Positions 1,263 to 11,319 of a DNA stretch of 64,000 nucleotides are shown in pieces; position 1 is the stretch's first letter; each line of letters begins with the position of its first letter. The notes under the pieces are model-generated. The model was not told the DNA's origin and ran no database searches. It saw only the letters and a list, made by a program, of their open reading frames with translations. The stretch lies in the NCBI RefSeq assembly GCF_014697415.1, contig NZ_JACJRT010000002.1, positions 1 to 64,000 on the forward strand. Reading direction: 5' to 3'. The position numbers and the translations under genes were made by a program. Source of the DNA: Cyanobium sp. FACHB-13342. Its GTDB lineage: Bacteria; Cyanobacteriota; Cyanobacteriia; PCC-6307; Cyanobiaceae.

Positions 1263-2399
1263 TCAGGCGAAGCCCTTGCCGGAATCCTTGGCCACGCACG
1301 CCTGGAGCTGGCGCCGCAGTTGGTCGTGGTTGAGGTTCTTGCCGATCAACACCACCTGGTTCTTGCGGGTGGCGTCGGGCCAGTCGGAGTCGTCGATCGA
1401 GAAACGCTTGCCGGCCAGATGAAACACATGGCGCCGTTCGCTCTCGTTGAACCACAGGATGCCCTTGGCCCGGAACACCTCCGCGGGCAACTGGTTGTCG
1501 AGGAAGTTCTGGAATTTGCGCAGGGCAAAGGGGCCCTCGGCCGCAAACGACAGCGACGTAAAGCCCTCGATGGCGGCGTGGTCGGGATGGGCGGCGTGGT
1601 CGTGGTGATCGCCGTGGTGATGGTCGTGGTGATGCTCCTCGTGATGGCTGTGCGTCTGACGACTGGGCGCGTGATGGTGGTCGTGGTCGTGTTCGCAGTG
1701 GCCATGGGCATGGTCGCAATCGCTGTGGTCCTGCTGCGCCACGATCTTGTCGCTCTCAAACAGGCCCACGCTCAGCAGCAGCGGCAGGGGCACCTCACCC
1801 TTCACCGACCGCAGGATGCGCGCGTCCGTTTTGATCTGGCGCAGTTGCGCTTCCAGGGCGTTGAGCCGCTCTTCGGCCACCAGGTCGCACTTGTTGAGCA
1901 GGAGCATGTCGCTGTACACGATCTGGGCCCGGGCCACCTCCCCCTCCAGCAGCTCATCGCTGAAGTTCTCCGCATCCACCAGGGTGATGATCGAGTCGAG
2001 GCGGGTGGCGTCGCGCAGGTCGCTGCCCAGGAAGGTCATGGCCACCGGCAGCGGGTCGGCCAGGCCGGTGGTCTCCACCACCAGGTAGTCGACCGGCTCG
2101 GGGCGATCGAGGATCCGATACACCGCTTCGAGCAGCTCGCCGTTGATCGAGCAGCAAATGCAGCCGTTGCTCAGCTCCACCATGTCTTCGCCGGTGGCCA
2201 CGATCAGGTCGTTGTCGATGCCGATTTCGCCGAATTCATTCACCAGCACCGCCGTTTTCAGGCCCTGCTGGTTGTTGAGGATGTGGTTGAGCAAAGTGGT
2301 TTTCCCCGCCCCCAGAAAGCCGGTGAGGATCGTCACCGGCAGGCCCGTGGGAGCCGCTGCCATCACGGTGGATTCGCTGGGGGTGGCGCTGGCGGTCAT
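1263..2399 (-). CDS. CobW/COG0523 family metallochaperone GTPase
   Basis: 378 residues. The P-loop GFLGAGKT is at residues 27-34, the metal-binding motif CICC at 80-83, and the guanine-specificity motif NKCD at 169-172. A strikingly His-rich linker spans about residues 225-274 (over 20 His with interspersed Asp and Glu), followed by the CobW C-terminal domain. COG0523 GTPases deliver Zn, Co or other metals to client proteins. The His linker, the adjacent hupE and the nearby znu/zur genes all point to Zn or Co handling. No clear Zur box was seen just upstream, so the metal remains open. Confidence 0.9.
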   Translation of the reverse strand: MTASATPSESTVMAAAPTGLPVTILTGFLGAGKTTLLNHILNNQQGLKTAVLVNEFGEIGIDNDLIVATGEDMVELSNGCICCSINGELLEAVYRILDRPEPVDYLVVETTGLADPLPVAMTFLGSDLRDATRLDSIITLVDAENFSDELLEGEVARAQIVYSDMLLLNKCDLVAEERLNALEAQLRQIKTDARILRSVKGEVPLPLLLSVGLFESDKIVAQQDHSDCDHAHGHCEHDHDHHHAPSRQTHSHHEEHHHDHHHGDHHDHAAHPDHAAIEGFTSLSFAAEGPFALRKFQNFLDNQLPAEVFRAKGILWFNESERRHVFHLAGKRFSIDDSDWPDATRKNQVVLIGKNLNHDQLRRQLQACVAKDSGKGFA

Positions 2400-2481
2400 C
2401 GATGCAGGGGATTGCCGTATGACGTTGACCTTAGGAAGGGCGTGATGGTGGATTCCGGATCCGGGCCTGGCTCCTCGCGCC

Positions 2482-3303
2482 TTACAGCTGCTGTTGCAGC
2501 TTTTGCAGCTGGGCTGTGCCCATCACGGTTGTGCGCGGGGGGATCACCGTTGGGAAGGCCTGCAACATGGTGGCAATGGCGCGCTGCTTGTCGCTGAGTT
2601 GGACCGCGGCAGCCGGTTGGCTGGCCGCGGCTTGGCCGAGCAGCCGTTGGGCCTCCAGCAGGAAGCCCCGTGCGTCCTGGTATTCGATCGCTTCCACAAC
2701 CTGGTTCCCCGTCACTGCGGCTCCGTATTCGTCCAGGGCCGTCTCCGCCAGCTGCCGCACCACGGCCGTCACCATTTGGGTGTCTGCGGCCCCACCTCCA
2801 GACAGGGCTTGGGCTGCGGCGGCGATGGCCTGCTGGGCCCTGGCCAGTTTCTGGGCCGTGGCAGGGGCCTGGGGATTGAGCCGCACCTGCTGGCGCAGGT
2901 CTTCCAGGGTGGCCAGGAACGGGGCGATCCGGCGACGTTGCAGGGCCGGCTCCACGGCGCCGTAGAGCTCATCGATCGGATGGCCCACGTGGGGCTCGGC
3001 TGCGCTGTAGAGCCGTTGGTTCAACAGCTCCTGGGCCACCAGCAGGTGGCCCTGCATCTGGGCCAGCACCACCAGTAGATCGAGGTCGGTTTGGGCGCTG
3101 GCCGCCCGACCACCCTCTCCCCCTTCCCCGCCTTCTCCCCCTTCCCCACCCTCGGCGAGGGTGGCCTGGCTCGGGCTCGACGACGCTGGCCCGTGCTGGC
3201 TGTGCTGGGCCAGGGCCTGGCACGGCTGGAGTGTGATGCCGAGCACCCCTGTGCTCACGCCCACGCTCAGGAAGATCTCCAGGGCTTTGCGGGGGCGTGG
3301 CAT
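2482..3303 (-). CDS. Secreted helical protein with (EGG)5 repeat, possible metal-binding partner of the adjacent multicopper oxidase
   Basis: 273 residues. There is a signal peptide at residues 1-32, then a linker with His pairs and five perfect EGG triplets at 51-65. The rest is an all-helical domain. Its most conserved-looking part, around residues 85-110, has regularly spaced metal-ligand candidates (QMQGHLLVAQELL, then AEPHVGHPIDELY). That GHL / HxxHPxxExY pattern resembles periplasmic iron-uptake helical domains (EfeO-like or the periplasmic part of FTR1-type permeases), but this is a resemblance only. It is the last gene of an operon with the multicopper oxidase (98 bases upstream) and a small EGG-repeat protein. 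No firm family was recognised. Confidence 0.75.
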   Translation of the reverse strand: MPRPRKALEIFLSVGVSTGVLGITLQPCQALAQHSQHGPASSSPSQATLAEGGEGGEGGEGGEGGRAASAQTDLDLLVVLAQMQGHLLVAQELLNQRLYSAAEPHVGHPIDELYGAVEPALQRRRIAPFLATLEDLRQQVRLNPQAPATAQKLARAQQAIAAAAQALSGGGAADTQMVTAVVRQLAETALDEYGAAVTGNQVVEAIEYQDARGFLLEAQRLLGQAAASQPAAAVQLSDKQRAIATMLQAFPTVIPPRTTVMGTAQLQKLQQQL

Positions 3304-3401
3304 GGGACAGGTCTTCAGTACAGCCAGGATCCTGCACGCCCCGCCCTTATGCCGTTCTTTTGCTATCGGGGGAGGTGATCAAAGGCACCGCGACGGGTGC
3401 C

Positions 3402-4364
3402 TCAGGCCGGCACCACCTCAAACAACCCCATGCAGCCCCGTTCGGCGATTGGGTCCTGGTGGGGGTGAACCATGTAGCGGCCGGTAAAGGGGAAGGACCA
3501 CTCCAGGATCTGCCGTTCGGCCATCCCGAGAGTCACCACGTCCGTGGTGTCGCTCCAACTCGGATGGATCACCCGGAATTCGTTGGCATGGAGATGGAAG
3601 GTGAGTGGTGCCTCCAGTTCCGTCATGTTCAGCAGGTAGAGCCGCACCAGCTGGTGCTGCCGGATGCGGATCGGCTGGTGCATGTAGGCATCAGGGATGC
3701 CGTTGAAGGCATACAGCTCGTTGCGCCCGTCATTGTTGAGGTCGTAGCCACCCATCACCAGCACCAGTTCATCGGCGGGGGGGCGGGGCGTGATCGGATC
3801 CACCACCAGCAGCCCGAACAGGCCCTTGCCCACATGCCGCGCCACCGGCGCCACATGGCAGTGATAGGGGTAAAGGCCGGCCCGCGGCAGATCGAACTCA
3901 TACACGGCAGTCCGTCCCTTGAGCACCGGCTCCACGCCATCCATGGCGGCAGGGTGAGTGCCATGAAAATGCAGGCTGTGGGAGGTGCTGTCGCCGTTGT
4001 GGAAGAGCACGCGGATGCGTTCTCCCTCCTGGGCACGCAGCGTCGGCCCGGGCACGCGGCCATTGAGGGTCCAGGCCTTGAACAGCACCTCTCCGCCCAG
4101 GGGAAGGGTGATGCTGCGGGCTTCCACCTCGAAGACCCGGATCCGTTGGCCGTTCTCCGCAATCAGGCGGCCCTGCTCAAAGCTGCGCAGGCACTCCTGG
4201 GGATCGAAGGGCAAGGGCGCTGATTTCGCGGGCGATGCCATCGGCGTCTCCATGGCCCGACTCCGGGCTCCCAGGCCTGCTCCCAGCAGGCCGGCACCGG
4301 CCATGAGCCATCCCCCGGCCCGGAGCAGCTGACGGCGATGGAGGGTGTTGGGGATTGGCTGCAC
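3402..4364 (-). CDS. Two-domain multicopper oxidase, Tat-exported
   Basis: 320 residues with a Tat-like signal (HRRQLLRAGGW, twin Arg at 10-11). Copper motifs are HSLHFHGTH (about 129-137), YHCH at 167-170 with a following His177, HLHAN at 257-261, and MVHPHQD at 298-304. The first cupredoxin domain therefore keeps the type 1 Cys, while the second has Pro at the equivalent place. Size and motifs fit a compact two-domain multicopper oxidase, possibly trimeric, acting in the periplasm on metal ions such as Fe2+, Cu+ or Mn2+, or on organic substrates. It lies in one operon between two EGG-repeat proteins, which favours metal oxidation. The substrate is not shown. Confidence 0.85.
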   Translation of the reverse strand: MQPIPNTLHRRQLLRAGGWLMAGAGLLGAGLGARSRAMETPMASPAKSAPLPFDPQECLRSFEQGRLIAENGQRIRVFEVEARSITLPLGGEVLFKAWTLNGRVPGPTLRAQEGERIRVLFHNGDSTSHSLHFHGTHPAAMDGVEPVLKGRTAVYEFDLPRAGLYPYHCHVAPVARHVGKGLFGLLVVDPITPRPPADELVLVMGGYDLNNDGRNELYAFNGIPDAYMHQPIRIRQHQLVRLYLLNMTELEAPLTFHLHANEFRVIHPSWSDTTDVVTLGMAERQILEWSFPFTGRYMVHPHQDPIAERGCMGLFEVVPA

Positions 4365-4375
4365 GCCCTTTCTCC

Positions 4376-4564
4376 TCAGCTTTCGCCCCCTTCTCCCCCC
4401 TCACCCCCCTCGCCCGCATCCCGATTGTCGGGCGGGTTGGGGCTGCGCAGTTCCTGGTTGTCGGAGCCCCCCTCCTCGCCGGCCTCGGGGGCTTGGCCGC
4501 AGGCCACGGTGCCGCCGGCCAGGGCCAGGGTGCTCAGAAAGAGGGCGATGCTGGAGCGATTCAT
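4376..4564 (-). CDS. Small exported EGG-repeat protein, possible lipoprotein
   Basis: 62 residues. The N-terminal signal segment ends in GGTVACGQ, a weak lipobox with Cys22. The mature part is very acidic and ends in (GEG)-type triplets (DAGEGGEGGEGGES, residues 49-62). It is the first gene of the three-gene operon, with its stop 11 bases before the multicopper oxidase start. The same EGG triplet appears in the third gene, so the two proteins probably share a partner, a processing step or metal-related chemistry. No recognised family; function unknown. Confidence 0.7.
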   Translation of the reverse strand: MNRSSIALFLSTLALAGGTVACGQAPEAGEEGGSDNQELRSPNPPDNRDAGEGGEGGEGGES

Positions 4565-4669
4565 CGGGCTGGATGGGATCAGAGCCTGCTTCGATCCTGA
4601 ACGGATTGCGGCCCCTGCGCATGGGTTCTGCAATCTGATCACAGCTCGCCGTCGCAATCGTCACGTCCC

Positions 4670-5335
4670 ATGCGTTTTCTGATTGAGCCGCTGGTGCCTG
4701 CAGCGCAATGCCGCTCCTGGGTCGAGCAGCTGCAGCGGGCGGGTGAGGCCTGGCGGCCCGGCACGGACACGGCCGGCTGGCACGCCCGGGAGGTGAAGGC
4801 CAACCACCAGCTCGATCGCCAATGTGCGCTGCATCAGACCCTGGCTGCGGAGCTGCTGGACCAGTTGCGGCGCCATCCCTTGATCCAGGCGGCGGCGTTT
4901 CCGCGCCAGATCCATGGCCTCCTATTCAGTCGCAGTGGCGTGGGGGAGGGCTATGGGCGCCATGTCGACAATGCCTGGATGGCGGGAGGCCGCAGCGATC
5001 TTTCGTTCACCATCGCCTTGAGCGATCCCGATGGCTACCAGGGGGGAGCCCTGGTGCTCGAATCGCCGAGTGGGGAGGATGCCTTTCGCCTGCCGGCCGG
5101 CCATGCCCTGGTGTACCCCAGCACCCTGCTGCACCGGGTGGAGCCGGTGACCGCCGGCGAGCGGCTGGTGGCGGTGGGCTGGATCGAGAGCCGCATCCGC
5201 CATGGGGACCAGCGGGAGTTGCTGTTCGAACTGGATACGGCGCGCCGGACCCTGTTTGAGCGCAGCGGCAAAGATGAGGTGTTCGATCTGATCAGCCGCA
5301 GCTACACCAACCTGTTGCGCCGCTGGGAGCGTTAG
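4670..5335 (+). CDS. PKHD-type Fe(II)/2-oxoglutarate hydroxylase (PiuC/YbiX-like)
   Basis: 221 residues, the usual length of this family. The iron triad is His98 and Asp100 (GRHVDNA) and His155 (LLHRVEP), with Arg165 (GERLVAVGW) placed to hold 2-oxoglutarate. In proteobacteria these enzymes often sit beside iron/siderophore receptors, which fits the surrounding metal genes. It diverges from the EGG/multicopper oxidase operon, and its last 4 bases overlap the convergent znuA stop. The hydroxylated substrate is unknown. Confidence 0.9.
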   Translation: MRFLIEPLVPAAQCRSWVEQLQRAGEAWRPGTDTAGWHAREVKANHQLDRQCALHQTLAAELLDQLRRHPLIQAAAFPRQIHGLLFSRSGVGEGYGRHVDNAWMAGGRSDLSFTIALSDPDGYQGGALVLESPSGEDAFRLPAGHALVYPSTLLHRVEPVTAGERLVAVGWIESRIRHGDQRELLFELDTARRTLFERSGKDEVFDLISRSYTNLLRRWER

Positions 5336-6315
5336 CGGCCGATCGCCTGCCACCGCTGCACCAGGGCCTGCTGACTGGCCCGGTCGCACCGGCCCTTGAG
5401 CCCGGTGACGATCAGACAGGTGTTGTCCGTGAGGGTGGCCACCAGGGTGGCGAATCCACGGCTGGCGGGGGCCAGGCCATCCGCCACCAGGGGGGCTGGG
5501 GCCAGGGGCACCCCGCTCAGGGCGCTGATGCGTTGCAGGGCCTTGCTGGCCGGCAGCTGTTCCGGGAACAGCATGGGCACCTGCTCCCGCTTCAGTTGGG
5601 CCACCACGGCCTGAAAGGCCTGGGGCCGCAGGGTGTCACTGCTGCTGCTGGCATCCACCAGCGGCAGCTCCTTGAGCTTGTAGGCCCGCGCCAGGCTGGG
5701 GAAGGCCCGGTGCCCGGTGGCGAGGGGGCTGCTGGCGGGAATGGTGGCCAGCTGCTGGCGGTTCCAGCGGTCGAGCTCGCCGAGCACGGTGGTCATCTCC
5801 AGGGCCCGCGCGGCAATGCGGCTGCGGGCCTCGGGGTTGCGGGCTTCCAGTCTCTGGGCCACCAGCCGCACCATGGCGCTGGCTTGGACGGGGTCGTGCC
5901 ACACGTGGGGATCCCGGTCGCCGTGATCGTGGCCGGCGTCGTGATGCGGGTCATGACCCACCACGGGGCTGCCTGGGACGGCCAGCTCAGCCACCGCCAC
6001 GGCCCTGGTTAGGTCGCCCAGGGCAGGGGTGAGGCTGTAGCCGTTGATCAGCACCAGCGGGGCCTGGCGGAGCTCGCGGCTCTGCTGGGGTGTCAGCCTG
6101 AACTGGTGGGGGTCGTCTCCGGGACGGAGCAGGCAACGCACCTCGAGGTCGGCTGCGGCAAGGCGCTGGCTGAGGTCACACAGCACCCCATCGGCGGCGA
6201 CCACCTCTGGGGGGCGGGACGTCCTGCAGCCGGCCAGGGCCACAAGGCCTGCCAGGGCGAGCGCCAGGGCCAGGCCGGCAGGGGGCGACGTTGGCGATCG
6301 GAGCGTCACAGGCAC
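5332..6315 (-). CDS. znuA: Zinc ABC transporter substrate-binding lipoprotein ZnuA
   Basis: 327 residues. Lipoprotein signal with lipobox LAGC (Cys30). Zinc ligands are recognisable as His70 (DDPHQF), His137/His140 (DPHVWHDP) and His202 (TGHRAF). A His/Asp-rich loop at about 121-131 (HDPHHDAGHDHG) is typical of zinc-type cluster 9 binding proteins. It captures periplasmic Zn2+ for ZnuC/ZnuB. It is transcribed away from znuC across a 119-base spacer holding a Zur-box-like palindrome, so both genes are probably repressed by Zur when zinc is plentiful. Confidence 0.95.
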   Translation of the reverse strand: MPVTLRSPTSPPAGLALALALAGLVALAGCRTSRPPEVVAADGVLCDLSQRLAAADLEVRCLLRPGDDPHQFRLTPQQSRELRQAPLVLINGYSLTPALGDLTRAVAVAELAVPGSPVVGHDPHHDAGHDHGDRDPHVWHDPVQASAMVRLVAQRLEARNPEARSRIAARALEMTTVLGELDRWNRQQLATIPASSPLATGHRAFPSLARAYKLKELPLVDASSSSDTLRPQAFQAVVAQLKREQVPMLFPEQLPASKALQRISALSGVPLAPAPLVADGLAPASRGFATLVATLTDNTCLIVTGLKGRCDRASQQALVQRWQAIGR

Positions 6316-6434: not shown

Positions 6435-7130
6435 GTGTCGCTTGAGGTGAGTCAGCTGCGAGTTCGCCGCGGCGACCAGCTGGCCCTGGAGGGCGTGAGC
6501 TTCGCGCTCGAGCCCGGCACCCTCACCGCCCTGGTGGGCCCCAACGGAGCCGGCAAGAGCACCCTGCTGCAGGCCATCGAGGGGCAATTGCCGCTGGAGA
6601 GTGGCGCCATCCGTCTCGATGGGCTGCCCCTCACCCCGGCCCTGGTGCGGCAGCAGCTGGCCCTGATGCCCCAGCGGGGGGAGATCGCCTGGCACTTCCC
6701 CATCAGCGTGCGGGAGCTTGTGGCCCTCGGGCGGATGGCCGCCCAGCGCCCGGGGTGCTGCGATGTGGAGGCCGCCCTGCAGCGGGTGGGCTTGGCCGGG
6801 TTGGCGGGGCGTCGCCTGGATCAGTTGTCGGGGGGGCAGCAGCAGCGGGCCCTGCTGGCGCGCACCCTGGTGCAGCCGGCCCGGGTGTTGCTGCTCGATG
6901 AGCCCTGCGCCGCCATCGACCCCCCCTCGCGTACGGAGCTGCTCAAGGTGATGGGCCAGCTGCGCGATGCCGGCCTCACCCTGCTGGTGAGCAGCCACGA
7001 CTGGGGGCGTGACCTCGATGCCTACGACCGGGTGCTGGTGCTCGATCGCTGCCTGCTGGCCGACGGCAGTCCCCAGCAGGTGCGCCATGCCCTCGGCGAC
7101 CTGCGCGTGGGCAACCACTGCTGCGGTTAG
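6435..7130 (+). CDS. znuC: Zinc ABC transporter ATP-binding protein ZnuC
   Basis: 231 residues, GTG start. Walker A GPNGAGKST at 35-43, Q-loop MPQRG near 79, ABC signature LSGGQQQR at 131-138, Walker B VLLLDEP at 151-157 and H-loop SSHDW near 192. It powers import through ZnuB. Unusually it is separated from znuB by zur on the opposite strand: the znuC stop overlaps the zur stop by 4 bases. Its partner znuA lies divergently across the Zur-box-like site. Confidence 0.95.
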   Translation: MSLEVSQLRVRRGDQLALEGVSFALEPGTLTALVGPNGAGKSTLLQAIEGQLPLESGAIRLDGLPLTPALVRQQLALMPQRGEIAWHFPISVRELVALGRMAAQRPGCCDVEAALQRVGLAGLAGRRLDQLSGGQQQRALLARTLVQPARVLLLDEPCAAIDPPSRTELLKVMGQLRDAGLTLLVSSHDWGRDLDAYDRVLVLDRCLLADGSPQQVRHALGDLRVGNHCCG

Positions 7131-7558
7131 CTGGCCCGCGCAGATGCCGGCTGGGTTGCACCGGCCTGGCGCTGCTGGCAGCTGGGGCACAGACCGAAGA
7201 ACTCCAGGGTGTGGAACAGCAGCCGGAAGCCGGAGGTCTGCACGTCATGCAAGTGCACATCGTGCATGGGGCAGTGTTCGAGCACGGCGGTGCAGCCGCA
7301 GTCGACGCAGGTGAGGTGGTGCTCGTCACGGTCGGTGGGGGCGAACAGGCCCTCGCCACTGGGCAGGTGACGGCAGCGAATCAGGCCCCGTTGCTGCAGC
7401 TGACGCAGGTGGCGGTACACCGTGGCCAGCCCCATGGGCTGGGGGCCCTGGCGCAGCAGGGCGTGGAGGTCTTGGCCGGAGAGTTCCCGGTCGGCCCGGC
7501 GCAGGGCGGCCAGCAGCAGCTGCTGGCGATCGCTCGGGGCGGCAACCTGGGTGGACAT
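7127..7558 (-). CDS. zur: Zinc uptake regulator Zur (Fur family)
   Basis: 143 residues from the ATG at 7558; a longer upstream reading is a shadow of znuB. The winged-helix DNA-binding region includes MGLATVYRHLRQLQQRGL at about 42-59. The dimerisation domain carries DEHHLTC and the structural zinc pairs CVDC (84-87) and CPSC (124-127). Zur with bound zinc represses uptake genes. It sits convergent to znuC and divergent from znuB, only 34 bases from the znuB start, so the zur and znuB promoters must overlap or lie inside the neighbouring genes. Confidence 0.93.
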   Translation of the reverse strand: MSTQVAAPSDRQQLLLAALRRADRELSGQDLHALLRQGPQPMGLATVYRHLRQLQQRGLIRCRHLPSGEGLFAPTDRDEHHLTCVDCGCTAVLEHCPMHDVHLHDVQTSGFRLLFHTLEFFGLCPSCQQRQAGATQPASARAS

Positions 7559-7592
7559 GGCCGGGCCGGTGACGGCGGAGTGCGCTGATCCT

Positions 7593-8405
7593 ATGGAGAG
7601 TCTCTGGTGGCTGCTGCCGCTGTTGCTGGCCCTGGTGATCGGTGGGCTGTGTCCCCTGGCGGGCACCCTGCTGCTGGTGCAGCGACGGCTGTTTTTGGCC
7701 AACCTGGTGTCCCACGCCGTGTTGCCGGGGCTGGCCCTAGCGGTGGCGTTGCGCCTGGATCCGGGCCTGGGCGGCGTGATCAGTGGCCTGGCCGGCGCCC
7801 TGCTGGCGGAGCGGCTCAGCCGCGCTGATCGTCCCGGGGAAGGGGGCGATGAGGCCGTGCTCAACACCGTGCTGGCGGGTTTTCTGGGGCTGGGGGTGCT
7901 GTTAATTCCCCTGCTGCAGATCCGCGTCGACCTAGAGGCGGTGCTGTTCGGCGACCTGCTGGCCGCCGCGCCGGCCGACCTGCTGCGCAGCCTGCTGGCC
8001 CTGGCGGCCGTGCTGCTGCTGTTGGCCTTGCGCTACCGCCACTACGTGTATCTGGGCGTGGATCCCCTGGGCGCCGCCGGGGCGGGCCTGCCCGTGCAGC
8101 GGCTGCGGCTGCTGCTCACGTTCGTGACCGCCTTCACGGTGGTGAGTGCCATGACCGCCGTGGGCGTGGTGTTGGTGATCGCCCTGATGGGTGCACCGGC
8201 CCTGGTGGCCCTGGCCGGTGCCGCCAGCCTGCGCCAGGCCCTCTGGCGCTCGGCCCTGGTGGGCATGGCCATCAGTGGGGCGGGCTTCCTGCTGGCGATC
8301 CAGCCGCTGGTGAACCTCCCCCCTGGCCCCCTGATCGGCGTGCTCTGCCTGGGACTGCTGCCCCTGGCGGGGCTGCGGGAACGGCGTCTGTTAGCCCGCC
8401 GGTAG
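7593..8405 (+). CDS. znuB: Zinc ABC transporter permease ZnuB
   Basis: 270 residues with 7-8 hydrophobic segments. Family landmarks are LANLVSHAVLPGLALAV (about 34-50) and the coupling region AMTAVGVVLVIALMGAPA near 185-202. It forms the membrane channel for zinc with ZnuA and ZnuC. The start at 7593 gives a short N-terminus ahead of the first helix; the longer frame upstream is antisense to zur. The 3' end overlaps the convergent 439-residue gene by 15 bases. Confidence 0.93.
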   Translation: MESLWWLLPLLLALVIGGLCPLAGTLLLVQRRLFLANLVSHAVLPGLALAVALRLDPGLGGVISGLAGALLAERLSRADRPGEGGDEAVLNTVLAGFLGLGVLLIPLLQIRVDLEAVLFGDLLAAAPADLLRSLLALAAVLLLLALRYRHYVYLGVDPLGAAGAGLPVQRLRLLLTFVTAFTVVSAMTAVGVVLVIALMGAPALVALAGAASLRQALWRSALVGMAISGAGFLLAIQPLVNLPPGPLIGVLCLGLLPLAGLRERRLLARR

Positions 8406-9710: not shown

Positions 9711-10363
9711 GGCTCGAGCGGCCGGCTGGGCCGGGCGATGGGCGTGATCCGCTGGGCCACCACCACGCTGCGGCTCTGGCCGTGGTGCTCCTCCACCGCC
9801 ATGGTGCCCTGCACCGCCAGCCACTGATCGGCCCGGGGCACCTCGCCCGGCGGCCAGCGCACCGGCAGGCCCACCGGCGTGGCATCGGCGAGACAGCAGC
9901 GCACCAGCAGCCTGGCCAACTGGGGAGACTCCCCCGGCTGGGGCCACACAAAGCCGCTGATGCGCACCGGGTCACCGGCGTAGAGGCTGGGGTCGGGCTG
10001 GCTGCGCAGCAGGCGCACCCAGTCGGTGAGGCTGCGCTGGGCCGGCGGCAGCAGGAAGCTCAGCTCGGCCTCCTCACCCAGTTCGGCGGGGCGGTTGGCG
10101 GCCAGGTCGCTGAAGGAGGGGTTCGGGGGAAGCACCAGCACCAGCAGGGCCACGGCACCGCTCCACCACCAGGTTCTTGGGCTGGGTGGCCGACGGCCTG
10201 GCCCCAGCTCCGCTGGCAGTTGCAGGGCTGCTAGCACCAGCAGCACAACGCCGCTGAGGCCCACCAGGGGATGGAAGATCCCCCGCAGCAACAGGTCGAG
10301 CCGGCCACTGAGGCTGCTCACCAGCAGCACGAGTCCCCAGAGGGCGAGGGCGAGGGACCGCAT
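9707..10363 (-). CDS. TIGR03943 family putative permease subunit
   Basis: 218 residues. Two to three N-terminal membrane helices (residues 1-50 and about 65-85) precede a soluble C-terminal domain containing LYAGDPVRISGFV, RCCLADATPVGLPVRWP and DQWLAVQGTMAV. This is the usual layout of the TIGR03943 (YcgQ-like) family, which pairs with a DUF318/YraQ-type permease. That partner is directly upstream: the start here overlaps its stop at 10363. Homologous pairs in other bacteria are linked to metal, often zinc, control; transport of a metal here is inference. Confidence 0.85.
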   Translation of the reverse strand: MRSLALALWGLVLLVSSLSGRLDLLLRGIFHPLVGLSGVVLLVLAALQLPAELGPGRRPPSPRTWWWSGAVALLVLVLPPNPSFSDLAANRPAELGEEAELSFLLPPAQRSLTDWVRLLRSQPDPSLYAGDPVRISGFVWPQPGESPQLARLLVRCCLADATPVGLPVRWPPGEVPRADQWLAVQGTMAVEEHHGQSRSVVVAQRITPIARPSRPLEP

Positions 10364-11319
10364 CACAGCAACAGCAGGTTGACCCATTGGCCCAGCACCA
10401 GCACCGCCACTCCCGCGGCGGCGGCCGTCAGGGCAATGGCCCGGGGCTGAAACAACACCCGAAACAGGCCCAGCAGCTTCAGATCCACCACGGGGCCCAG
10501 CACCAGAAAGGCCAACAGCGCCCCCGGGGTGATCTGGGCGGCAAAGCCCAGGGCCAGAAAGGCATCCACGCTGGAGCACACCGACACCACCACCGCCAGC
10601 AGCATCAGGCTGAGCACCGACAGGGTGGGGGCTCCCCCCACGGCCAGCAGCCAGCTCCGGGGCAGGAGGGTTTGCACGGTGGCGGCGATGGCGCAGCCCA
10701 GCACCAGCAGGGCGGCCAGATCGAGAAATTCCCGGCTGCCGTGCTCCAGCACCTCCTGCAGGGGGGGACGGGACGGCTGAACCGGCAGCGGCGGGGGGCT
10801 CACGGTTCCCACCAGGCCCGAGCGTCTCTCCAGCAGTCCCACCTCCGCCAGAGGTTGACTGAGCCGCCGTTCCTCCAGGAGGGCGGGCGCCAGCAGGTGG
10901 GCCTCCGGCAGCAACCGCAGCACGCTGGCCAGCAGCAGGCTGAGCAGCAGGGCTCCCCCGGGACGGGCCGCCAGCAACCAGGGCTGGTTGGGGAAGGCGG
11001 CCCAGGTGCTGGCCAGCACGATCGGGTTCAGCACCGGAGCGGCGAACAGGAAGCCGAGGGCCGTGCCCAGGGGGGCCCCCCCCGCCAGCAGGCGCCGGGC
11101 CACCGGCACGTTGCCGCATTCACAGGCCGGCAGGGCAAAGCCCAGGGCGGCGCCGGTGAGGGGGCCGAGCAGGGCATGGCGGGGCAGCTTGCGCAGCCAG
11201 CCGCCCCCGGGGGCAAGCCAGCGGGCCAGGCTGGCGATGGCCACCCCGATCAGCAGGAAGGGGAGGGCTTCCAGCAGCAGCCCCTGAAAAATGGCCCAGG
11301 CGGTGGCCAGGCGCTCCAA
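10363..11319 (-). CDS. DUF318/YraQ-type membrane permease
   Basis: 318 residues, about eight membrane segments in two homologous halves. The signature ALPACECGNVPVARRLLA is at about 62-79, with the paired motif SVCSSVDAFLALGFAAQ in the second half (about 245-261). Conserved Cys in both motifs suggest soft-metal or metalloid transport; ArsP-type members export organoarsenicals. It is the first gene of a coupled three-gene operon with a TIGR03943 protein, lying just beyond the zinc genes, so zinc or another metal is a reasonable guess. The substrate is not established. Confidence 0.87.
   Translation of the reverse strand: MERLATAWAIFQGLLLEALPFLLIGVAIASLARWLAPGGGWLRKLPRHALLGPLTGAALGFALPACECGNVPVARRLLAGGAPLGTALGFLFAAPVLNPIVLASTWAAFPNQPWLLAARPGGALLLSLLLASVLRLLPEAHLLAPALLEERRLSQPLAEVGLLERRSGLVGTVSPPPLPVQPSRPPLQEVLEHGSREFLDLAALLVLGCAIAATVQTLLPRSWLLAVGGAPTLSVLSLMLLAVVVSVCSSVDAFLALGFAAQITPGALLAFLVLGPVVDLKLLGLFRVLFQPRAIALTAAAAGVAVLVLGQWVNLLLL

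Follow-up and report, generated by a model that had tools for sequence, protein, structure and literature searches.

A multicopper oxidase operon with two EGG-repeat proteins in a Cyanobium genome: a candidate periplasmic iron module kept without FTR1

Three genes on the minus strand at positions 2,482 to 4,564 of the 64,000-nucleotide stretch of Cyanobium sp. FACHB-13342 DNA analysed here (the window) encode a two-domain multicopper oxidase (MCO) and, on either side of it, two proteins with runs of the triplet EGG, which we call EGG62 and EGG273; homologues of the latter are referred to as the 273 family. The surrounding genome, in which the window is contig 11, comprises 2.37 Mb in 18 contigs and is 99% complete. 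Its closest relatives among named genomes are strains or bins assigned to Synechococcus, Cyanobium and Vulcanococcus, which makes it a probable member of the picocyanobacteria. The genes and their repeat tracts are as follows.

4376..4564, minus strand: EGG62, first in transcription order; start codon ATG at 4564, last position of the stop codon 4376; 62 amino acids
4385..4411, minus strand: DNA of the three EGG repeats in the EGG62 tail (residues 52-60)
3402..4364, minus strand: MCO, second in transcription order; GTG start at 4364; 320 amino acids
2482..3303, minus strand: EGG273, third in transcription order; ATG start at 3303; 273 amino acids
3109..3153, minus strand: DNA of the five EGG repeats in EGG273 (residues 51-65)

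The intergenic gaps are 11 bp between EGG62 and MCO and 98 bp between MCO and EGG273. An earlier note on this DNA had described a two-domain oxidase gene between two EGG-repeat protein genes and had read the operon as a metal system, perhaps an FTR1-like iron route; the arrangement stands, and the interpretation as a whole is partly supported by what follows. The repeats are also as described, with five perfect EGG triplets at residues 51-65 of EGG273 and three in the EGG62 tail, DAGEGGEGGEGGES.

MCO matches Pfam Cu-oxidase_2 and Cu-oxidase_3, both above cut-off. In an alignment of 14 sequences the RR pair of its Tat-type signal is invariant, as are H129, HxH 132-134, HCH 168-170, H177, HxH 257-259 and HxH 300-302, which we take to be the type 1 and trinuclear copper ligands. 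The T1-type pair Cys169/His177 lies in domain 1, where the motif is HCH, whereas domain 2 has HPH without the Cys; for such a two-domain enzyme with its T1 copper in domain 1 the class label is presumably type C. Leu182 is invariant as well and stands, we assume, at the position of the axial Met of nitrite reductases; a Leu axial residue goes with high-potential copper sites such as that of Fet3p. The ligand set and Leu182 fit, without proving, a ferroxidase, for which MCO is a candidate. The nearest solved chains are 3gdc (presumably from Arthrobacter; E 1e-66) and 7rab (E 8.8e-62), both over ~265 residues.

Two other assignments of MCO were tried and rejected. Against the NCBIfam models of the three-domain enzymes CopA, CueO and laccase it scores 65.5 of 478.95, 31.5 of 525 and 27.9 of 558.9 bits, respectively, and it has only two MCO domains; as a copper nitrite reductase it reaches 63.7 bits against a cut-off of 296.3. 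The weak similarity to the first three models and the MCO fold itself would suit copper handling, with MCO as a CueO/CopA-like enzyme, a cuprous oxidase or a laccase, for detoxifying copper in the periplasm and EGG273, whose His residues are conserved, as a copper sink. We consider this improbable, as the scores fall far under cut-off, the partner family goes with FTR1, porin and ferritin-like genes, and no copper gene was noticed among the neighbour clusters identified, which are part of all clusters. Two-domain MCOs also include laccases, such as chain 2zwn, and MCO could on that ground be a manganese(II) oxidase or general laccase with iron genes as incidental neighbours; the near-complete pairing with an FTR1-linked family described below leaves this only a slight chance.

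The AlphaFold prediction for EGG273 has a mean pLDDT of 83, and of 87-99 in the blocks of ten residues from position 71 onwards; helices span residues 73-272, whereas residues 1-65, the signal and EGG linker, are of low confidence. The GHL and HxxHPxxExY patterns that had been likened to periplasmic iron-binding domains are present at residues 85-87 and 105-114, and their key residues are conserved over four phyla: in a 19-sequence alignment drawn from Cyanobacteriota, Pseudomonadota, Deinococcota and Chloroflexota, G85, H86, H105, H108, P109, E112, E192, Y193, E207, Y208, Q209 and D210 are invariant and form a plausible metal-site set. EGG273 has no Pfam or NCBIfam family match at E up to 1, M75/imelysin included, and 14 family members searched against NCBIfam gave scattered weak matches (best E 0.0014) to no iron family. 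Among structures, a PDB sequence search with EGG273 returned nothing usable, a PDB profile search returned six chains that by name are designed helical proteins but for one of unclear name, and Foldseek with the helical domain gave no match at E <= 1e-3. VIA-align superposed 86 residues on designed bundles with Z values as high as 12.7, which is the stated noise range for helical bundles; its matches to vinculin, G-protein-coupled receptor (GPCR) fusions, designed bundles and imelysin-like 3pf0 (Z 6.9) were rejected as lying within that noise.

Profile comparison gave a more specific relationship. The C-terminal bundle of EGG273 (residues ~181-258) matches the N-terminal extension of long permeases that bear the name cytochrome c/FTR1 family iron permease in plasmid records (hhalign E 1.7e-5, probability 78.6), with a score of 48.4; none of 40 column shuffles exceeded 23.4, and the reversed control gave 15.6. 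Judged by these profiles, the bundle and the N-terminal extension of FTR1 are homologous. In the long permeases, extension and permease belong to one chain and a cytochrome c motif separates them, whereas EGG273 is a stand-alone exported protein with further helices. An extra C-terminal segment of the family proteins in Chloroflexota (and, by eye, in Deinococcus) resembles the FTR1 part just ahead of the permease domain. Of the two families with which the earlier note had proposed to compare the 273-residue domain, FTR1 yielded homology through its extension and EfeO (M75/imelysin) gave no Pfam match.

The 273 family and MCO occur together almost without exception. In a phylum sample of 386 genomes, 68 carry the family at E < 1e-25 (68 of 70, two weak matches in G318 and G399 being left out) and 69 carry MCO at E < 1e-40; 65 have both, 3 the 273 family only, 4 MCO only and 314 neither (Fisher p 8e-65, inflated by relatedness). 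Three of the MCO-only genomes (G320, G459, G518) hold distant paralogs, which share 38-45% identity with the two MCOs used as queries, and in the fourth, G380, the gene is at a contig edge. At the order level all 15 of the 200 genomes with the 273 family also have MCO; some MCO match is found in 49/200, and a close MCO (best E < 1e-70) in 16/200, namely the same 15 and G183. In G183 MCO is in broken pieces, the gene for a PKHD dioxygenase is partial and no 273 match exists genome-wide, while an EGG62-like frame ending EGGEGGEGG remains; since only these remnants are left, the gene set seems to decay together. The co-occurrence with the oxidase that had been predicted for related genomes is in this way near-complete at both levels.

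FTR1 provides the link to iron. It is found in 107 of the 386 genomes, 58 with the 273 family and 49 without. In 46 of the 68 genomes with the family, FTR1 is encoded no more than 5 kb from the 273 gene and in the same orientation, and 12 others have it at another place; it is absent from 10, the window's genome included, and from all 200 genomes of its order (0/200). The earlier note had remarked on a permease missing from the operon; it is in fact missing from the whole genome. Outside the phylum, FTR1 of Deinococcus taeanensis begins 3 bp past the family gene, and a 273-family match occurs in 10/231 Chloroflexota genomes, 8 of them with full-domain matches. At seven of these eight loci FTR1 follows downstream on the same strand (tblastn), directly in L157, L158, L160, L161, L162 and L163 and after ~0.8 kb in L159; the eighth, L156, has no FTR1 in the surrounding 10.5 kb and two FTR1 genes elsewhere in its genome. 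Together with the C-terminal homology, these linkages give the proposed FTR1-like iron route strong comparative support.

Genes around the pair in other genomes were clustered by BLAST over 38 loci (two of which, L033 and L043, are the same contig). The recurrent clusters include porins (17), PKHD dioxygenases (10), FTR1 (8) and a ferritin-like protein of 144 amino acids (5). Two porin-cluster members tested exceed the cut-off of the 'iron uptake porin' model NF033921; two further neighbours tested proved to be ferritin-like proteins. Single loci add FeoA, ferritin proteins and a ferric-binding-protein homologue that is FutA-like (among solved structures it matches 2pt1 best, which is an iron transport protein; NCBIfam models for aminoethylphosphonate and thiamine stay below cut-off), and next to the Roseovarius relative the adjoining gene is an Fe(II) dioxygenase. 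The window's genome has a homologue of the FutA-like protein at C7:95572-96504 (46% identity, in a frame of 375 amino acids).

We therefore favour, at somewhat better than even chances, a periplasmic ferroxidase with an Fe(III)-binding partner, an FTR1-type module kept without FTR1. The Tat-exported MCO would oxidise periplasmic Fe(II) to Fe(III), which EGG273, held near the membrane, would take up at its conserved His/Glu site and then pass to an importer. In many other cyanobacteria the importer would be the FTR1 permease encoded adjacent, and the same gene order, there without MCO, is observed in Chloroflexota and Deinococcus. In the window's lineage, without FTR1, the likely receiver would be the ferric ATP-binding cassette (ABC) transporter FutABC, to judge from the FutA-like homologue. 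The EGG repeats would serve as a flexible acidic linker joining the export signal or lipid anchor to the folded domain, and in this clade anchor and linker also exist separately as EGG62, which may act as a tether.

The immediate surroundings of the operon in the window are as follows.

648-1250: HupE/UreJ protein, downstream side of the operon
1263-2399: CobW GTPase, downstream side
4565..4669, no strand: divergent intergenic region, common to the EGG62 and PKHD dioxygenase genes, with a short stretch alike in five genomes
4670..5335, plus strand: PKHD-type Fe(II)/2-oxoglutarate dioxygenase, upstream of the operon and divergent; a recurrent neighbour (10/38 loci) that also adjoins the Roseovarius relative
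5332-6315, 6435-7130 and 7422-8405: zinc-type ABC transporter, upstream side; NCBIfam matches strong but below each model's cut-off
7127-7867: Fur-family regulator, upstream side; NCBIfam match strong but below the model's cut-off

Several observations weigh against the iron reading. The flanking metal genes here are mostly of the zinc type (ABC transporter, Fur-family regulator, CobW), with only the PKHD dioxygenase pointing to iron, and zinc and CobW genes recur at several related picocyanobacterial loci. FTR1, which ties the family to iron, is absent from this genome. The module cannot serve every cyanobacterial FTR1, because 49 of the 107 FTR1 genomes have no 273 family, and MCO was not found in the stretches read of the Chloroflexota loci or of L132-L134. 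The pair is not always an operon, since the two genes are convergent in G481 and G514. Finally, the sequence of MCO alone does not show whether its substrate is Fe(II) or, instead, Cu(I), Mn(II) or a phenol, and the helical domain has no PDB match of known function. Zinc ABC genes recur close to related pairs (L036, L047, L049, L052 and L122), as does CobW (L031, L044, L047, L049, L050, L051, L052 and L110), and here both stand beside the operon with the Fur-family regulator. On this ground the operon could belong to a Zur-type regulon and aid zinc acquisition or metallation. This is a poor prospect, as the tight same-strand neighbour across the phylum sample is FTR1 (46/68) and redox-inert zinc offers a copper oxidase no obvious use.

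Synonymous codons are mixed in the EGG runs of both proteins, so neither run is a product of recent DNA slippage. Searched with a DNA pattern of two EGG triplets in succession, the 2.37-Mb genome has nine matches, six in the EGG273 and EGG62 genes and three at other DNA positions. Across the 273 family, at least two EGG triplets precede the folded domain in 24 of 74 distinct entries (profile-recovered, some partial); the longest perfect run has 11 repeats, and the triplet count per protein varies from 0 to 15. Close orthologs mostly carry the repeats, as the earlier note required of them, with exceptions in L032 and L036 (none) and L051 (a single triplet), and the alphaproteobacterium Indioceanicola has five EGG triplets at the position matching those of EGG273. 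In a relative at L119:6583-7692, from a cyanobacterium with a convergent MCO gene, a very long EGSEGG/EGAEGG tract holds 15 EGG triplets.

In the phylum sample the repeats and an adjacent FTR1 exclude each other. In a table of 67 phylum-level proteins (G250, which has no open reading frame match, was left out), at least two EGG triplets occur in 0 of the 45 FTR1-adjacent proteins and EGG repeats in 13 of the 22 without adjacent FTR1 (Fisher p 2e-8, a value inflated by kinship). Instead, a helix-hairpin-helix (HHH) segment is called by pattern in 44 of the 45, the remaining one being cut by a contig end, and Pfam HHH_3 was confirmed in one FTR1-adjacent member. The position of this HHH_3 segment between lipobox and helical domain (L112:5511-6614 and other FTR1-adjacent members) is unexpected for an exported protein. 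In a quick tree of the 273 domain with long branches (85 rows; G315 and G253, without the domain-cutting motif, were left out) the FTR1-adjacent proteins form one derived clade of 48 rows and the EGG proteins lie in several other branches, EGG requiring five changes; because of that single clade, the table reflects few evolutionary events rather than 67 independent ones. The layout differs as well, the gap between the MCO and 273 matches being 80-196 bp in 12 EGG genomes, those where a single contig holds the two genes, and at least 381 bp in the FTR1-adjacent ones. From these comparisons, EGG is a recurrent variable linker, with an HHH domain in its place where FTR1 adjoins. That the repeats themselves make up the functional core is not supported, as they vary and are absent from FTR1-adjacent members.

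EGG62 has a lipobox-like TVAC with Cys22 and a C-terminal EGG tail, and it is kept in the window and in L027, L028, L029 and L032. In L047, L049, L044 and L051 the large 273-family proteins resemble lipoproteins themselves and have N-termini such as RRAIQLFLAVTSTAAVAVACG. The N-terminus of EGG62 scores 74 against L049/L050, 70 against L047 and ~50 against the next members, compared with a best score of 41 among 76 other lipobox reading frames (76 of 77, the EGG62 frame of L029 having been set aside by eye). Because of this resemblance to family lipoprotein N-termini, EGG62 is probably a detached lipoprotein anchor and EGG linker of the 273 family, probably encoded separately in a clade whose large protein has lost its lipobox. 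Nonsynonymous divergence (dN) is below synonymous divergence (dS) in 10/10 EGG62 pairs, one with saturated dS, as computed on the first 32 and last 10 codons only, a choice that favours conserved parts.

Whether the repeats do more than fill space is evenly balanced. A functionless flexible spacer, with EGG62 as a vestigial fragment, would account for triplet numbers from 0 to 15, for close orthologs with none (L032, L036) and for the other domain that takes the place of EGG in FTR1-adjacent members. It would not explain the EGG at a matching position in an alphaproteobacterium or an EGG62 tail that five genomes retain, with dN lower than dS over the compared parts, and that persists in L032, whose 273 partner has no EGG, and in G183, whose MCO gene is broken.

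The proposed module resembles, in part, several known systems. A cyanobacterial reduction/re-oxidation pathway through cFTR1 is reportedly the work of Xu et al. 2016, cited in PMC7676907 and PMC11221513. In the passages available from PMC7676907, the yeast Fet3p-Ftr1p pair is a ferroxidase/permease system and, for cyanobacteria, iron may be re-oxidised by oxygen and is imported via cFTR1, with no oxidase named. As in yeast, an MCO is genetically paired with an FTR1-family permease in many relatives of the module; unlike yeast, the module has a two-domain Tat-type MCO, an extra helical partner and, in this genome, no permease. FTR1-linked uptake is likewise common to the module and the cFTR1 pathway, and the module would supply the oxidase that the available account of that pathway leaves unnamed. 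The portion available of PMC11221513 gives slr0964 as FTR1, and 'multicopper' does not appear in its main text. EfeUOB and FtrABCD are presented as bacterial ferrous iron transporters in the available parts of PMC9174327 and PMC11966278, the latter treating FtrB as a possible ferrous oxidase; there too, on these partial accounts, periplasmic iron-binding or oxidising proteins feed an FTR1-type permease, but EGG273 lacks an M75/imelysin (EfeO) Pfam match and the oxidase here, instead of a single cupredoxin, is an MCO of two domains. Nitrosococcus is annotated with an FTR/Fet3p system in the excerpt of PMC9723733, which is alike in its MCO and FTR route and differs by phylum, with no helical partner mentioned in the excerpt, and the part of PMC12636525 on SAR11 mentions ftr1 and multicopper oxidases apart from each other. 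The available portions of PMC4005646 and PMC6103462 contain nothing on the MCO-273 pair. Among the matches listed for MCO and FTR1 in cyanobacteria, drawn from open-licence PMC papers available in part, there is no description of the pair, which is not proof of novelty, and among those listed for EGGEGG nothing is on topic by title or abstract.

A bolder proposal is possible, though we think it doubtful: the 273 family would be a class of Fe(III) carrier in the periplasm that has so far gone unrecognised and, with MCO, the missing ferroxidase arm of cyanobacterial FTR1 uptake. The picocyanobacterial pair would have been re-wired without FTR1, and the EGG tails of two distinct proteins, one of them lipid-anchored and the other soluble, would act as a matched tether or relay iron with low affinity. 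Iron is limiting for cyanobacteria, and a specific two-gene module is now indicated in 58 of the 107 FTR1-bearing genomes of the phylum sample, lineages that retain the module while lacking the permease are identified, and a nameless family gains a clear functional context in four phyla.

Some further features were observed at the loci. No sigma-70-like site was found in positions 2300-4800, where the promoter and terminator scan was empty, and scanning the window for tandem repeats, tRNAs and Rfam families turned up no element bearing on the operon. The stretch conserved in five genomes near the PKHD start, within 4565-4669, resembles TGTGA-N6-TNACA, presumably a CRP/NtcA-like pattern. Short tandem repeats at 1569-1647 fall within a His-rich stretch of the CobW GTPase that adjoins the operon, and ~6 kb from the operon a permease at 10363-11319 has weak similarity, below cut-offs, to SO_0444-type Cu/Zn efflux proteins and SaoE.

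At other loci, the 273-family gene at L052:5756-8374 (G112) is split in two pieces ~1.6 kb apart, with an MCO frame of 351 amino acids adjoining. In Indioceanicola, a di-heme protein of the MauG type that carries a cupredoxin domain at its C-terminus (L132:7634-8983) lies 3 bp downstream of the EGG-bearing relative and is perhaps an alternative oxidase partner replacing MCO. A hydantoinase/oxoprolinase-like protein, so labelled by annotation in Deinococcus and by 41-48% identity in tblastn at the other loci, follows the 273-family/FTR1 pair in Deinococcus and six Chloroflexota loci, a conserved partner without explanation, at these positions.

L133:9118-11187: hydantoinase/oxoprolinase-like
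L157:481-2580: hydantoinase/oxoprolinase-like
L158:6935-8806: hydantoinase/oxoprolinase-like
L160:843-2897: hydantoinase/oxoprolinase-like
L161:6741-8879: hydantoinase/oxoprolinase-like
L162:6942-8996: hydantoinase/oxoprolinase-like
L163:864-2918: hydantoinase/oxoprolinase-like

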